Source: Salinimicrobium catena
GTDB taxonomy: Bacteria; Bacteroidota; Bacteroidia; Flavobacteriales; Flavobacteriaceae
DNA: 64,000 bases
Assembly (NCBI RefSeq): GCF_900102915.1
Contig: NZ_FNGG01000001.1
Span: 434,001 to 498,000, forward strand
Direction: 5' to 3'
Shown: in pieces, positions 53,347-57,169 of the stretch
How the letters are laid out: every line of letters begins with the position of its first letter
Position numbering within the stretch: position 1 is the stretch's first letter
Notes under the pieces: generated by a model
What the model was told of the DNA's origin: nothing
What the model saw: only the letters and a program-made list of their open reading frames with translations
Databases searched by the model: none
Position numbers and translations under genes: made by a program

Positions 53347-55023
53347 TTAGTTCTTGCCACCCCAGGAATCCCGTAGTGTTACTGTGCGGTTGAAAACAAG
53401 CTTTTCTGCTGTACTGTCTTTATCAACGTTAAAATATCCTATTCTCTGGAACTGGAACTGGTCCAGCACCTTGGCATCTTTAAGGCTTGGTTCCAGGTAA
53501 CCGGTAACCACCTTTAAAGAATCCGGATTAAGGAACTCGGTAAAGTCTTTTTCCTTGTCGGCATCTGGCGCTTCTACGGTGAACAGGCGGTCATAAAGCC
53601 TTACCTCTGCTTCTATGGCGTGCTTTGCAGAAACCCAGTGCAAGGTACCTTTCACCTTACGCATGGATTCCTCTGTTCCACTGCCGCTCCGGCTTTTGGG
53701 ATCATAAGTACAATGGATCTCAACGATCTCCCCATTTTCATCCTTTACCACATCCTCGCCTTTGATGATATACGCGTTCTTAAGCCTTACTTCCTTTCCT
53801 AAGGTTAACCTGAAGAACTTGCGGTTGGCTTCCTCCTTGAAATCTTCTCTTTCAATGTAAAGCTCCTTAGAAAACGGAACTTTTCTAGACCCGGCAGATT
53901 CATCTTCAGGATTGTTCTCAGCATCAAGCCATTCTTCTTCCCCTTCGGGATAATTTGTGATCACCAGCTTTACAGGATCAAGCACGGCCATAACCCTTGG
54001 CGCGGCTTTGTTAAGATCTTCCCTAATGCAAAATTCAAGAAGGGAAACATCCACGATATTTTCCCTTTTTCCTATCCCAATAGTTTCAGCGAACTTCCTG
54101 ATAGACGCTGGCGTGTAACCTCGTCTTCTCAAAGCAGAAACTGTCGGCATACGCGGGTCATCCCAGGAAGAGACTATCCCCTTCTCTACCAGGTGAAGCA
54201 GTTTCCTCTTGCTCACAATCGTATGGCTCAAATTACGCCTTGCAAATTCCCTTTGCTTTGGCCTGAATTCTTCCGAAGAACTTACCTTTTCAAGGAACCA
54301 GTTATACAGATCACGGTGTGGTAAAAATTCAAGCGTACAGAAGGAATGAGAAACATGCTCAATAAAATCACTCTGCCCGTGTGCCCAGTCGTATAAAGGA
54401 TAGATCATCCAGTCGTTCCCGGTGCGGTGGTGTTTTTTATGAAGGCTGCGATACATCACAGGATCACGCATGATCATGTTCTTGGAAGCCATATCTATTT
54501 TTGCACGAACAACATGCTGACCTTCGGCAGTCTCACCGTTCTTCATCTTCTCGAACAACTCAAGGTTCTCTTCTACCGAACGATCCCTGTACGGGCTGTT
54601 CTTTCCGGGTTCTGTAGGCGTACCTTTTTGCTCGGCGATCTCTGCGGAAGTCTGACTGTCCACATACGCATGACCGTTCTTGATAAGCTCTACCGCCCAG
54701 TCATACAATTGCTGAAAATAATCTGAAGCATAACATTCCCTGGCCCATTTAAACCCAAGCCATTCCACATCTCGCTTTATGGCATCAACGTATTCCTGTT
54801 CCTCTTTTATGGGATTGGTATCATCAAACCTGAGATTAACAGGCGCATTGTACTTTTCTCCCAACCCAAAGTTAAGGCAAATCGAAGAGGCATGACCAAT
54901 GTGAAGATATCCGTTAGGTTCAGGCGGAAACCTGAATTGAAGTTCTTCTCTGCTATAATTTGTTCTTAGATCTTCTTCAATGATTTGCTCAATAAAATTG
55001 AGGGATCGCTTTTCTTCAGACAT
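53347..55023 (-). CDS. glnS: Glutaminyl-tRNA synthetase
   Basis: 558 residues from the ATG at 55023, preferred over the upstream in-frame start at 55053 because the -7 box at 55051-55058 would lie inside it. RFPPEPNGYLHIGHASSICL (about 30-49) holds the HIGH motif, and LSHTIVSKRKLLHLV (about 260-275) is the KMSKS loop. The C-terminal beta-barrel anticodon domain is complete, with no YqeY fusion at this length. It charges tRNA-Gln directly, so no GatCAB route is required. Confidence 0.97.
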   Translation of the reverse strand: MSEEKRSLNFIEQIIEEDLRTNYSREELQFRFPPEPNGYLHIGHASSICLNFGLGEKYNAPVNLRFDDTNPIKEEQEYVDAIKRDVEWLGFKWARECYASDYFQQLYDWAVELIKNGHAYVDSQTSAEIAEQKGTPTEPGKNSPYRDRSVEENLELFEKMKNGETAEGQHVVRAKIDMASKNMIMRDPVMYRSLHKKHHRTGNDWMIYPLYDWAHGQSDFIEHVSHSFCTLEFLPHRDLYNWFLEKVSSSEEFRPKQREFARRNLSHTIVSKRKLLHLVEKGIVSSWDDPRMPTVSALRRRGYTPASIRKFAETIGIGKRENIVDVSLLEFCIREDLNKAAPRVMAVLDPVKLVITNYPEGEEEWLDAENNPEDESAGSRKVPFSKELYIEREDFKEEANRKFFRLTLGKEVRLKNAYIIKGEDVVKDENGEIVEIHCTYDPKSRSGSGTEESMRKVKGTLHWVSAKHAIEAEVRLYDRLFTVEAPDADKEKDFTEFLNPDSLKVVTGYLEPSLKDAKVLDQFQFQRIGYFNVDKDSTAEKLVFNRTVTLRDSWGGKN

Positions 55024-55050
55024 AATTGTTTCTTTCAGCTTTTTCAGCTG

Positions 55051-55058
55051 CAAAATTA
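55051..55058 (-). promoter_or_regulatory. Predicted -7 box for glnS
   Basis: The minus strand reads TAATTTTG (TAnnTTTG), 28 bp upstream of the chosen glnS ATG. Confidence 0.6.
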
Positions 55059-55136
55059 CAGAAAATAAACATCAAAAAAGACAGGGAAAAAGAGGATTCC
55101 AAAGCAGCCTTTTAGGAAGGTATTCTGAATAGTTCC

Positions 55137-55144
55137 TATCTTCG
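55137..55144 (+). promoter_or_regulatory. Weak -7 box for folB
   Basis: TATCTTCG, one base from TAnnTTTG, 14 bp before the folB ATG at 55158. Confidence 0.4.
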
Positions 55145-55157
55145 CAAAAAATTGATC

Positions 55158-55514
55158 ATGGGAAGCATAAAACTTAAAAATATCAAGATCTTCGCCTACC
55201 ACGGATGCATGGATGAGGAAGGCAGAATAGGCAGCGATTACCGTGTAGACCTGAAGGTGCAGGGCGATCTTTCCCGGTCGGCCAAGACCGACGCGCTTAG
55301 AGATACCATAGATTACGTTCACCTAAATAAGATCGTAAAAGAAGAAATGGCCATACGTTCCAAACTCCTGGAAACAGTAGCAGAGCGTATTTTGAGCAGG
55401 GTGCTGGAGGAAATACTTCTGGTTCAAAAGGTTACGGTAGATGTCTCAAAGATCAATCCACCCATTGGCGGAAATGTAGAGATGGTAACGGTAAGGAGGA
55501 CTAAAAGCCGTTAG
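55158..55514 (+). CDS. folB: Dihydroneopterin aldolase
   Basis: 118 residues from the ATG at 55158 (the TTG two codons upstream is less likely). FolB splits dihydroneopterin to 6-hydroxymethyl-dihydropterin in folate synthesis. KLKNIKIFAYHGCMDEEGRI (5-24) has the conserved YHG, and DTIDYVHLNKIVKEEM (about 49-64) and LLETVAERILSRVL (about 70-83) match the family; the catalytic Lys lies in the last third. It is transcribed toward tRNA-Cys. Confidence 0.95.
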   Translation: MGSIKLKNIKIFAYHGCMDEEGRIGSDYRVDLKVQGDLSRSAKTDALRDTIDYVHLNKIVKEEMAIRSKLLETVAERILSRVLEEILLVQKVTVDVSKINPPIGGNVEMVTVRRTKSR

Positions 55515-55568
55515 AAAAGCTAAACTTTAAAGCTTTCTAAAAAGGTAGTCTCAAAAAATAAATTTTAT

Positions 55569-55576
55569 TACATTTG
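55569..55576 (+). promoter_or_regulatory. Predicted -7 box for tRNA-Cys
   Basis: TACATTTG matches TAnnTTTG exactly, 15 bp upstream of the mature tRNA 5' end. Confidence 0.7.
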
Positions 55577-55591
55577 CCTCCGTTAAACAAC

Positions 55592-55662
55592 GGCATCGTG
55601 GCCGAGTGGCTAGGCAGAGCTCTGCAAAAGCTTGTACAGCGGTTCGAATCCGCTCGATGCCT
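55592..55662 (+). tRNA. tRNA-Cys (GCA)
   Basis: A 71-nt cloverleaf. Acceptor GGCATCG (55592-55598) pairs with CGATGCC (55655-55661), and the D arm GCC...GGC is present. The anticodon loop is CTGCAAA with anticodon GCA, and the T arm is AGCGG-TTCGAAT-CCGCT. The discriminator base is U73 (55662), the main identity element for cysteinyl-tRNA synthetase. CCA is not encoded. Downstream lies a terminator and then five repeat units derived from its 3' end. Confidence 0.96.
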
Positions 55663-56400
55663 CAAAAGCTCCTTTTTCAAGGGAGCTTTTTTTATTTCTT
55701 TTCGCTTCAGATCATTCAAAATATCTCACTATTTCCAGATCAGAATGAAAGGATGATTAATAAGGATAACTTGTACAGCGGTTCCCCCGAAGCGTCGGGG
55801 CGCTCGATGCCTCAAAAGCTCCTCTTTCAAGGGAGCTTTTTTTATTTCTTTTCGCTTCAGATCATTCAAAATATCTCATTATTTCAAATAGGAATGAAAG
55901 GATGATTAATAAGGATAACTTGTACAGCAGTTCCCCCGAAGCGTCGGGGCGCTCGATGCCTCAAAAGCTCCTTTTTCAAGGGAGCTTTTTTTATTTCTTT
56001 TCACTTCAGATCATTCAAAAATATCTCACTATTTAAGATCAGAATGAAAGGATGATTAATAAGGATAACTTGTACAGCGGTTCCCCCAACACTTCGGGGC
56101 GATCGATGCCTCAAAAGCTCCTTTTTCAAGGGAGCTTTTTTTTTTCTTTTCACTTCAGATCATTCAAAATATCTCACTATTTTCAGATCAGAATAAAAGG
56201 GTTATTAATAGGATAACATGGACAGCGGTTCTCCCGAACCGTCGGGGCGCTCGATGCCTCAAAAGCTCCTTTTTTCAAGGGAGCTTTTTTATTTCTCTGC
56301 ACTTCAGATCATTCAAAAATATCTCACTATTTCAAATAGGAATGAAAGAGTGATTAATAGATAACTTGTACAGTGGTTCCCCCGAAGCGTCGGGGCGATA
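55631..56400 (+). repeat. Tandem array of tRNA-Cys 3'-end plus terminator units (148-150 bp)
   Basis: Units begin (at CTTGTACAG or a variant) at 55631 (the tRNA itself), 55770, 55919, 56069, 56217 and 56365, with steps of 139, 149, 150, 148 and 148 bp. The last unit is partial. Each full unit has the tRNA variable region and 5' T-stem (GTACAGCGGTTC), then CCCCGA-AGCG-TCGGGG in place of the T loop, then CGCTCGATGCC of the acceptor strand, the terminator hairpin (AAAAGCTCC...GGAGCTTTT) with T-run, and about 75 bp AT-rich DNA. Spacer subtypes (AGATCAG versus CAAATAGG) alternate along the array. No TAnnTTTG box and no credible ORF occurs in a unit. Confidence 0.9.
55664..55697 (+). terminator. 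Rho-independent terminator of tRNA-Cys (first of several copies)
   Basis: Arms AAAAGCTCC (55664-55672) and GGAGCTTTT (55682-55690) followed by T residues, starting 2 bp after the tRNA. Near-identical copies recur in each of the next four array units (about 55813, 55962, 56112 and 56260), giving five terminators in series. Confidence 0.88.
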
Positions 56401-56431
56401 AAGCTAATTTTCAGAGCCTTTATGTAAAGCT

Positions 56432-57169
56432 TTAAAAATTGCTTCGGAAATTTTTTTTCGAAAGTTGAGCTGCCGCACTGTCCTCGGGAGTAGTTGGTGT
56501 GATATTGTCGATCTGCTCCTGTATCTGATTGATCTCCTGCGGAACGAGGCCCTGCCCTATCAGGAAAATTCCGAAGATCATAAGGAGCACGCTGATGCCT
56601 TTTTTAACCCTGTAAATACGATTGGGAGTAAGTTTCCGGTTCAGCTTTTTGGCAGCCAGGATCTTGAAGATATCCACCACAAAATAGGTACCTATTATGC
56701 TGCTGAAAAAGATGGTAATCCTGTCGGTTTCCATTTCCATTTGAGGACCAAACACAATGATCAATCCCAGCCAGAAACCCAGTACTCCAATGTTGATAAA
56801 GTTCAGCAGAAAACCTTTCGCGGCCAGTCCCAGGTAATCTCTTTTGTTCAGTTTCTGAATTTCGGGCACCTCTTCATGCTGTAAAACCCGCTTGGTCTGT
56901 ATGAACTGAATAATGCCATAAGTAACCAGAATACCTCCGCCAAAAATAAAAAGAGCCGGATCATCCTTGATCCGGTTCAATAATTTCGTGGTACTAAAAT
57001 AAGCTATAAGTAAAAAGATAACATCGGCAAAGATCACTCCCAGATCAAAAGAAATGGCGGCTCTAAAGCCTTTGATGGCAGCAGTTTCCAAAAGAACGAA
57101 AAAGACCGGGCCCAGTAAGAAAGCGAGGAAAAATCCTAGCGGTACGGCTGCCAGTATATCTTGAAACAT
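56432..57169 (-). CDS. LysE-family translocator
   Basis: 245 residues with about six membrane helices. AAVPLGFFLAFLLGPVFFVL (about 7-26) and AISFDLGVIFADVIFLLIAY (about 38-57) match LysE/RhtB exporters, which expel amino acids or other small metabolites. The last 30 residues are polar with a PTTPEDSAAAQL tail. The stop lies about 30 bp from the tRNA-derived array, in convergent orientation. A -7 box is present upstream. Confidence 0.85.
   Translation of the reverse strand: MFQDILAAVPLGFFLAFLLGPVFFVLLETAAIKGFRAAISFDLGVIFADVIFLLIAYFSTTKLLNRIKDDPALFIFGGGILVTYGIIQFIQTKRVLQHEEVPEIQKLNKRDYLGLAAKGFLLNFINIGVLGFWLGLIIVFGPQMEMETDRITIFFSSIIGTYFVVDIFKILAAKKLNRKLTPNRIYRVKKGISVLLMIFGIFLIGQGLVPQEINQIQEQIDNITPTTPEDSAAAQLSKKNFRSNF

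Follow-up and report, generated by a model that had tools for sequence, protein, structure and literature searches.

A hairpin replaces five nucleotides of tRNA-Cys in each unit of a tandem array

The window, meaning the whole 64-kb stretch of DNA analysed here, contains one tRNA gene, which encodes tRNA-Cys(GCA). This gene gives a single BLAST match in its own genome, G000, and is followed by a tandem array of partial tRNA copies (Table 1). An initial annotation of the locus described five units of 148–150 bp behind the tRNA, four complete and one partial. Inspection of the sequence and Tandem Repeats Finder both confirm this. Briefly, the program reports positions 55651–56397, with a period of 149, 5.0 copies, 90% matches and a score of 1211; at double the period, the array extends over 55651–56399. 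The start-to-start spacing, from a repeat search, is 148–150 bp. Each unit consists, in order, of the T-stem 3' strand, the acceptor 3' strand, the terminator, a spacer, the variable region, the T-stem 5' strand and a hairpin. Viewed instead as tRNA copies, the units run from the variable region through GTTC to the hairpin and then, in units 1–4, from C62 through the acceptor 3' strand and terminator. Unit 5 ends 4 nt past the hairpin, and so lacks the acceptor strand and terminator that complete units 1–4.

Table 1. Coordinates of the tRNA-Cys gene and the array behind it, numbered from the first base of the window
Feature	Position	Strand	Basis
Intact tRNA-Cys(GCA), host and putative target of the array	55592..55663	+	ARAGORN; Rfam RF00005, 59.8 bits
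Terminator-like site of the tRNA	55664..55690	+	Terminator scan
Tandem array, period ~149, 5 copies, last truncated	55651..56399	+	Tandem Repeats Finder, repeat spacing
Copy 1: variable region, T-stem 5' strand, TTC	55770..55784	+	Sequence
Hairpin 1, CCCCGA-AGCG-TCGGGG, in place of tRNA positions 57–61	55785..55800	+	
Terminator copy, unit 1	55814..55840	+	
Hairpin 2, identical to hairpin 1	55934..55949	+	
Terminator copy, unit 2	55963..55989	+	
Hairpin 3, one mismatched pair (CCCCAACACTTCGGGG)	56084..56099	+	
Terminator copy, unit 3	56113..56139	+	
Hairpin 4, T-G first pair (TCCCGAACCGTCGGGG)	56232..56247	+	
Terminator copy, unit 4	56261..56288	+	
Hairpin 5, within truncated last unit; array end ~56399	56380..56395	+	

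It had also been claimed that the hairpin replaces the T loop. A hairpin is indeed present in every unit, but the exchange is more precise: exactly 5 nt (GANTC, positions 57–61) give way to a 16-nt hairpin, and a T-stem of 4 bp is left. Hairpins 1, 2 and 5 have the same sequence. As described previously, unit 4 carries a C to T change that leaves a G-U-type pair, and the unit 3 hairpin is broken; it has kept four C-G pairs and lost the fifth, which is now A-C. All copies share the swap, and this fits the suggestion that the new T-arm is older than the amplification.

The region contains five terminator-like sites, one for the tRNA and one for each of units 1–4, compared with 1.4 in shuffled sequences. 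A sigma-70 promoter scan of the array gave matches at chance level, and inspection of open reading frames revealed no GIY-YIG-like ORF (see below) inside it. When single copies were folded, RNA z-scores ranged from -0.45 to -1.45, which is ordinary stability relative to shuffled sequences. Hence, we did not use folding energy as evidence and relied on comparative evidence instead. In Rfam searches of the array region, at gathering and relaxed thresholds, only tRNA reached the gathering score.

These observations bear on whether the array works through its RNA. Transcribed units might imitate tRNA halves, divert tRNA enzymes or nucleases, or act as stacked terminators or processing signals. Such roles would be in keeping with the terminator-like site in each of units 1–4, and with a hairpin stem that is kept through compensatory changes (see below). 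However, the units lie past a predicted terminator, single copies fold no better than shuffles and, tRNA aside, no Rfam family has a gathering match; the RtT model is absent even at E ≤ 10. Furthermore, the hairpin sits in the T, anticodon, D or variable arm depending on the clade, so that no common tRNA-like product is seen. We consider an RNA function decidedly unlikely. For the serial terminators and tRNA-half mimics put forward by the initial annotation, we found no positive evidence; they are possible side effects.

The array varies within the genus and has counterparts at other tRNA genes

The same exchange is found elsewhere in G000. A BLAST search with the array identified two units, 122 bp apart, behind tRNA-Ala(GGC), with an identical swap of 5 nt for 16 nt. 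At tRNA-Pro(TGG), a pattern search detected two intact hairpin copies and a third, broken one. Finally, a search for nuclease genes led to tRNA-Phe(GAA) (locus L120, contig C24, ~943–945 kb), where GIY-YIG remains surround a run of ~1100 N and the last unit has a tRNA-Phe tail bearing the hairpin.

We compared 12 genomes of the genus, the named members of which are Salinimicrobium species. Arrays behind tRNA-Cys are present in four of them, with five hairpin copies in G000, five in G011, two in G006 and one in G004. Examination of 620 nt in each of the other eight genomes, two of which are less than 80% complete, revealed no tRNA-Cys array. The tRNA-Ala array has two copies in G000, six in G006 and one in G011. 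Array length, which the initial annotation had proposed to compare, therefore varies among the four tRNA-Cys carriers. Note that such variation also suits a mobile element.

Two further loci of G000 are recorded here in their own right. At C7:2326–2643 (L280, L279 and L281), three tandem units lie 152 bp apart; they have the hairpin core CCCGAAACGTCGGG, no detected tRNA, and an adjoining GIY-YIG-like gene of a different kind (LYIGVTN type, by eye). On C21, at tRNA-Thr (L289), degenerate tRNA-Thr 3' copies with other palindromes (CGAGCGTAGTCGAGGG type) are found beside a CCCGA hairpin. This suggests that several kinds of palindrome occupy one position.

The substitution recurs at nine tRNA isotypes

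A search of 397 genomes from the family found the exact pattern, GGTTCYYCCGANNNNTCGGRRC, in 24 of them and the reversed-pattern control in none. Of 71 distinct copies, 61 agree with a tRNA from their own stretch over at least 15 of the 22 flanking nucleotides. The hairpin-bearing T-arm, for which the initial annotation had proposed a search next to other tRNA genes, is present there. Nine isotypes are represented: Phe (21 copies), Leu (9), Val (7), Ala, Cys, Pro and Tyr (5 each), Gly (3) and Arg (1). Five of the 61 copies are located before, rather than after, the tRNA. Among the ten that do not match, three come from fetched stretches without a tRNA, two of these belonging to a tRNA-Phe array in G190, and seven have weaker matches. 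The G190 array has seven hairpin copies. Unit length ranges from 35 bp (tRNA-Val, G209) up to ~380 bp where a nuclease gene is included (tRNA-Phe, G190). Note that the genome-wide search for gene-less copies covered the T-loop type.

Other arrangements were encountered in passing. In G288, on contig C1 at ~847.2 kb and ~1833.0 kb (L294 and L304), partial tRNA-Leu and tRNA-Gly 5' halves with a D-loop hairpin lie upstream, mirroring the window layout; we noticed no nuclease gene at either place. In G037, from another family of the order, a tRNA 3' fragment carries a hairpin (GTTCCACCGAAGCATCGGGG) at C196:4188–4207 (L099), in a stretch with no detected tRNA gene.

To score covariation, copies were collected via the tRNA tail rather than the stem. 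This gave 112 copies, 58 of which have GTTC plus 16 nt; the remaining 54 (13 with a normal T-loop and 41 of other kinds) were left unscored. Stems of the 58 copies are 98.6% paired, compared with a mean of 95.1% and a maximum of 96.3% in shuffled sets, for loci that were largely fetched by hairpin pattern or nuclease and that, while deduplicated, are related and non-independent. The first stem pair is C-G in 44 copies, T-A in 11 and T-G in three. Similarly, the second pair is C-G in 53, T-A in four and C-A in one. The hairpin stem covaries, and the compensatory changes that the initial annotation had proposed to look for, across units and species, are present.

A simpler history is that of an inert slippage array. 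Here, a tRNA fragment with a hairpin would have originated a single time, by chance or from an extinct element, and unequal recombination between 149-bp repeats would have multiplied it; the window array would have no present activity. The damaged hairpin 3, the truncated last unit and the lack of a GIY-YIG-like ORF inside the array all agree with this, as does an array confined to four of 12 genus genomes at 5, 5, 2 and 1 copies. However, the precise swap recurs at nine isotypes in 24 genomes, its stems covary, and some units contain conserved nuclease genes. A single chance origin does not account for this, although the window copy as it stands today may be just such an array, and we judge the slippage account unlikely. 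The initial annotation had equated simple slippage DNA with an array that is absent or random in length in every relative, is never transcribed and shows no compensatory changes. We find the array absent from eight of the 12 genus genomes and variable in length in the other four, but compensatory changes exist, and so the description as a whole does not apply.

Alternatively, the hairpin could be a REP palindrome moved by a Y1 (IS200-like or RAYT) transposase, having entered tRNA copies by happenstance, with the GIY-YIG gene as a passenger. In 15 genomes searched, core hairpins (CCCGANNNNTCGGG) number 24–53 in seven (G000, G006, G011, G190, G288, G311 and G427), 4–12 in four and 0 in four, against 0–3 in reversed controls. 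Some are away from tRNAs. This applies to the 24 in G000, where some also resemble chance or coding matches. Matches to Y1_Tnp are found in 13 of 24 pattern-positive and nine of 24 pattern-negative genomes, and weak matches in frames of at least 168 aa, RAYT-like in look, in 11 of 24 versus two of 24. We count both the hairpins of the same core away from tRNAs and the commoner RAYT-like genes (11/24 vs 2/24) against the element model proposed below. Conversely, a Y1_Tnp match is absent from 11 of the 24 pattern-positive genomes, including G311 and G427, which have many copies. Moreover, the hairpin core occurs in none of 14 fetched Y1/RAYT-like stretches (2–4.5 kb, in only six of which a RAYT-like ORF is the longest). 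The transposase reading is disfavoured, and we rate it very improbable.

Small GIY-YIG nuclease genes lie beside tRNA genes

In three relatives, units at tRNA-Phe are ~377–470 bp long and contain an ORF of ~93 aa. All four of the tRNA-Phe-unit proteins examined match PF01541 (E from 2e-8 to 3e-13). The GIY-YIG domain covers residues 1–73 of 93 in three proteins and 1–70 of 98 in the other, and an additional DNA-binding domain was found in none of the four. In alignments of the nucleases, Y5, R26 and H30 are invariant and G18 is nearly so; we take these to be the residues characteristic of the GIY-YIG catalytic domain. The predicted structure has a mean pLDDT of 89.5. Its nearest fold is the UPF0213 protein 1zg2, followed by Slx1-Slx4 (7cq3), with I-TevI (1ln0) also listed, none at E ≤ 0.001; a profile match to 1zg2 has an E-value of 1.1e-5. 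Between species, the nuclease genes are under purifying selection. The dN/dS ratio is 0.05–0.24 in 29 of 30 unsaturated pairs (60–98% identity), a set that counts two pairs twice (L108 and L210 have the same sequence), and 0.48 in the remaining pair; 55 further pairs were saturated. Genes of this kind are common, the nuclease profile having matches in 85 of 397 family genomes at E ≤ 1e-10. We found no relatives in viral, phage and plasmid collections.

We examined 83 nuclease-family loci, comprising 14 loci and another 69 from profile matches, taken roughly down the E-value list with many contig-edge or weak places skipped. According to a script, 74 are near a tRNA gene, one call being doubtful. 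At 61 loci, a same-strand tRNA precedes the nuclease gene by no more than 700 bp, and in 52 of these the distance is 34–68 bp. At 13 loci, the tRNA is downstream only (within 300 bp); at one of these, L270, the tRNA call is probably false, and the tree test described below scored this locus as having no tRNA. The other nine loci have a tRNA on neither side. Among them, L207 is within the tRNA-Phe array of G190, and tRNA fragments are visible by eye at L112 and L222.

Nuclease clades differ in the tRNA that they accompany, in the arm that carries the hairpin and in its side, 3' or 5'. Note that arms were assigned by eye, automatic alignment being noisy. At tRNA-Met, the anticodon loop is replaced in L224, L228 and L274; L230, unlike these three, has the T-loop replaced. 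The anticodon arm is replaced at tRNA-Val(TAC) and tRNA-Arg(TCT), with a second hairpin in some of the Val copies, and the variable region or anticodon stem is replaced at tRNA-Asn. At tRNA-Asn and tRNA-Arg(CCT), for example L229 and L220, the layout is mirrored: the displaced part is the 5' portion of the tRNA, with the hairpin in its D arm. Stems differ but mostly have a CCCG core (TCCCGA/TCGGGA, CCCCGATAG/CTATCGGGG and TCCCGC/GCGGGA), TCACGC/GCGTGA being an exception. An intact tRNA gene, together with a partial copy displaced beyond the nuclease ORF, is seen, but not at every locus; we saw no hairpin copy at L104, L110 and L111, for instance. At L229 (G215), two GIY-YIG genes are found upstream of the intact tRNA-Arg(CCT), separated by a hairpin-bearing tRNA 5' half.

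Mirrored copies are relevant to another explanation, that the array consists of attR-like remnants from repeated integration and loss of a phage or island at the tRNA 3' end. tRNA 3' halves are usual attachment sites for such elements, and the window copies are direct repeats of a tRNA 3' half. An attR copy, however, would keep the core and would not carry a precisely bordered hairpin swap, and 5'-side copies exist (L229 and L220). By eye, there is also no integrase-like ORF among the ORFs at positions 55000–57000. We regard integrase scars as extremely unlikely. Even so, repeated integration at a tRNA comes nearest among the three roles that the initial annotation offered; the agent, however, was probably a GIY-YIG nuclease element and not a phage integrase, and the same swap is found at many tRNAs.

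On a tree of the nucleases, tRNA and side change 15 times for 14 states at 71 loci, whereas 300 shuffles gave a mean of 44.8 and a minimum of 39. The tree contains all 83 loci but has few columns, with many forks open; the 71 scored are those that are labelled and non-duplicate, three doubled sequences having been dropped. The outcome ties protein lineage to tRNA target. Grouping of this kind is compatible, too, with mostly vertical inheritance in place, and does not by itself single out specificity.

Nuclease genes and hairpin copies also occur together across genomes. The tRNA-Phe-type nuclease is found in eight of 18 genomes with T-loop copies at non-Phe tRNAs and in nine of the other 379 (p = 6e-8, with no correction for ancestry and with a few tRNA assignments weak). 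Likewise, 20 of 24 pattern-positive genomes, compared with 65 of 373 others, have a family nuclease of any kind, again uncorrected for ancestry. At E ≤ 1e-10, however, the tRNA-Phe-type nuclease is missing from 10 of the 18 genomes, including G311, which has 10 pattern matches, and any family nuclease is missing from four of the 24. Hence, for those 10 genomes, either gene loss or another agent is needed.

A model for nuclease-driven elements on tRNA genes

Our preferred reading, to which we assign a probability of roughly 0.55 on the strength of sequence comparisons, is that the window array belongs to a family of selfish elements that live on tRNA genes in Bacteroidota and are driven by GIY-YIG nucleases, and is a tandemly amplified form that lacks the nuclease gene. 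It is probably a decaying derivative, without a gene and with no special function, and was perhaps made in trans. A complete element consists of an intact tRNA, a terminator, a GIY-YIG gene of ~93 aa and a displaced partial tRNA copy with a hairpin arm. In some clades the order is mirrored, so that the displaced 5' part with its hairpin precedes the GIY-YIG gene and intact tRNA. That the tRNA is the nuclease target we infer from adjacency and from target-specific clades; cleavage, the cut site, homing, immunity of hairpin copies and action in trans we also infer.

According to this model, the nuclease would cut the tRNA gene inside one arm; for the tRNA-Phe type, the putative cut site is the T-loop sequence GTTC|GANTC. 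Recombinational repair would then copy the unit in, regenerating an intact tRNA and displacing the old end. The intact tRNA on one side would keep the cell alive. Since the hairpin would occupy the cut site, displaced copies should escape cutting, while the intact tRNA stays open to it. Repeated rounds could lengthen the array, and if the array served as the repair template after a cut, units would be gained or lost. The T-loop sequence is common to nearly all tRNAs, and so we propose that the nuclease can act in trans on tRNA-Cys and others; this could explain T-loop copies at nine isotypes. Two points count against the model. First, the intact tRNA of a carrier should still be open to attack, so self-cutting must be weak or controlled. 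Second, because the sequence after each hairpin belongs to the local tRNA, importing a tRNA-Phe unit would be insufficient for a new isotype and local duplication would be needed.

A more far-reaching possibility is that these tRNA-gene parasites are a new class of bacterial selfish element. Each nuclease clade would own one tRNA and one arm and would rebuild that tRNA whenever it inserts; a hairpin that does away with the cut site would label the displaced copy, and arrays lacking the gene would be seeded at other tRNAs. We hold this tentatively, at somewhat less than even odds. The hairpin-substituted tRNA arm would then be the hallmark of the element, and we know of no counterpart in described mobile elements. 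In the open-access literature, with most subscription papers and preprints outside, we found no published description of GIY-YIG genes with hairpin-substituted tRNA copies.

Relationship to known systems

Mobile DNA has a preference for tRNA genes, where it is most familiar in the form of large islands with integrases. Here, a unit of only ~380 bp, coding for a single 93-aa nuclease, appears to maintain itself on tRNA genes because it rebuilds the gene each time. Gene-less relatives appear to persist likewise on other tRNAs, including the tRNA-Cys with a single BLAST match in G000. The interest lies in this family of elements, rather than in the window array itself. If the mechanism holds, the family also provides specificity studies with a ready-made set of nucleases that differ in tRNA target.

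The rtT repeats of E. coli tyrT also form a tandem series downstream of a tRNA gene and contain a portion of its 3' end, but are not known to have a T-arm swap or a nuclease gene. The Rfam RtT model, which we take to represent these repeats (RF00391), is absent from the 50 matches obtained at E ≤ 10, and so we rejected membership. Slx1 and I-TevI combine GIY-YIG with a partner or DNA-binding domain. The nuclease described here is unlike them, being a single 93-aa domain without that partner or DNA-binding domain. SegB, a GIY-YIG enzyme of phages, is also larger than 93 aa.

The closest analogues appear to be phage SegB and the mORF elements of fungal mitochondria. SegB is a free-standing GIY-YIG homing endonuclease of T-even phages, encoded beside tRNA genes, and in phage T6 the segB gene and recombination genes are required for tandem amplification of a tRNA segment, as described in the accessible text of the source (PMC13096335). 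Like the nucleases studied here, SegB is thus encoded next to tRNA genes and is proposed to cut in tRNA-containing sequence; it drives tandem amplification of a segment with the nuclease gene and tRNA, by recombination at short homologies (PMC13096335). Unlike them, SegB is phage-borne and amplifies a full-length tRNA gene, and the same portion of that source mentions no hairpin-substituted tRNA copies and has co-localisation favouring no particular isotypes (PMC13096335). The mORF elements of Glomus and Allomyces resemble our units differently. According to the accessible part of their description, a LAGLIDADG or GIY-YIG element imports a copy of the target gene's 3' end, so that the gene stays working and the native 3' end is displaced downstream (PMC3630166). 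These elements differ in residing at protein genes of fungal mitochondria, and the same text describes no hairpin swap and no tandem arrays (PMC3630166). If the mechanism proposed here holds, the tRNA-associated elements would be a bacterial chromosomal counterpart to both SegB amplification and fungal gene-end replacement.
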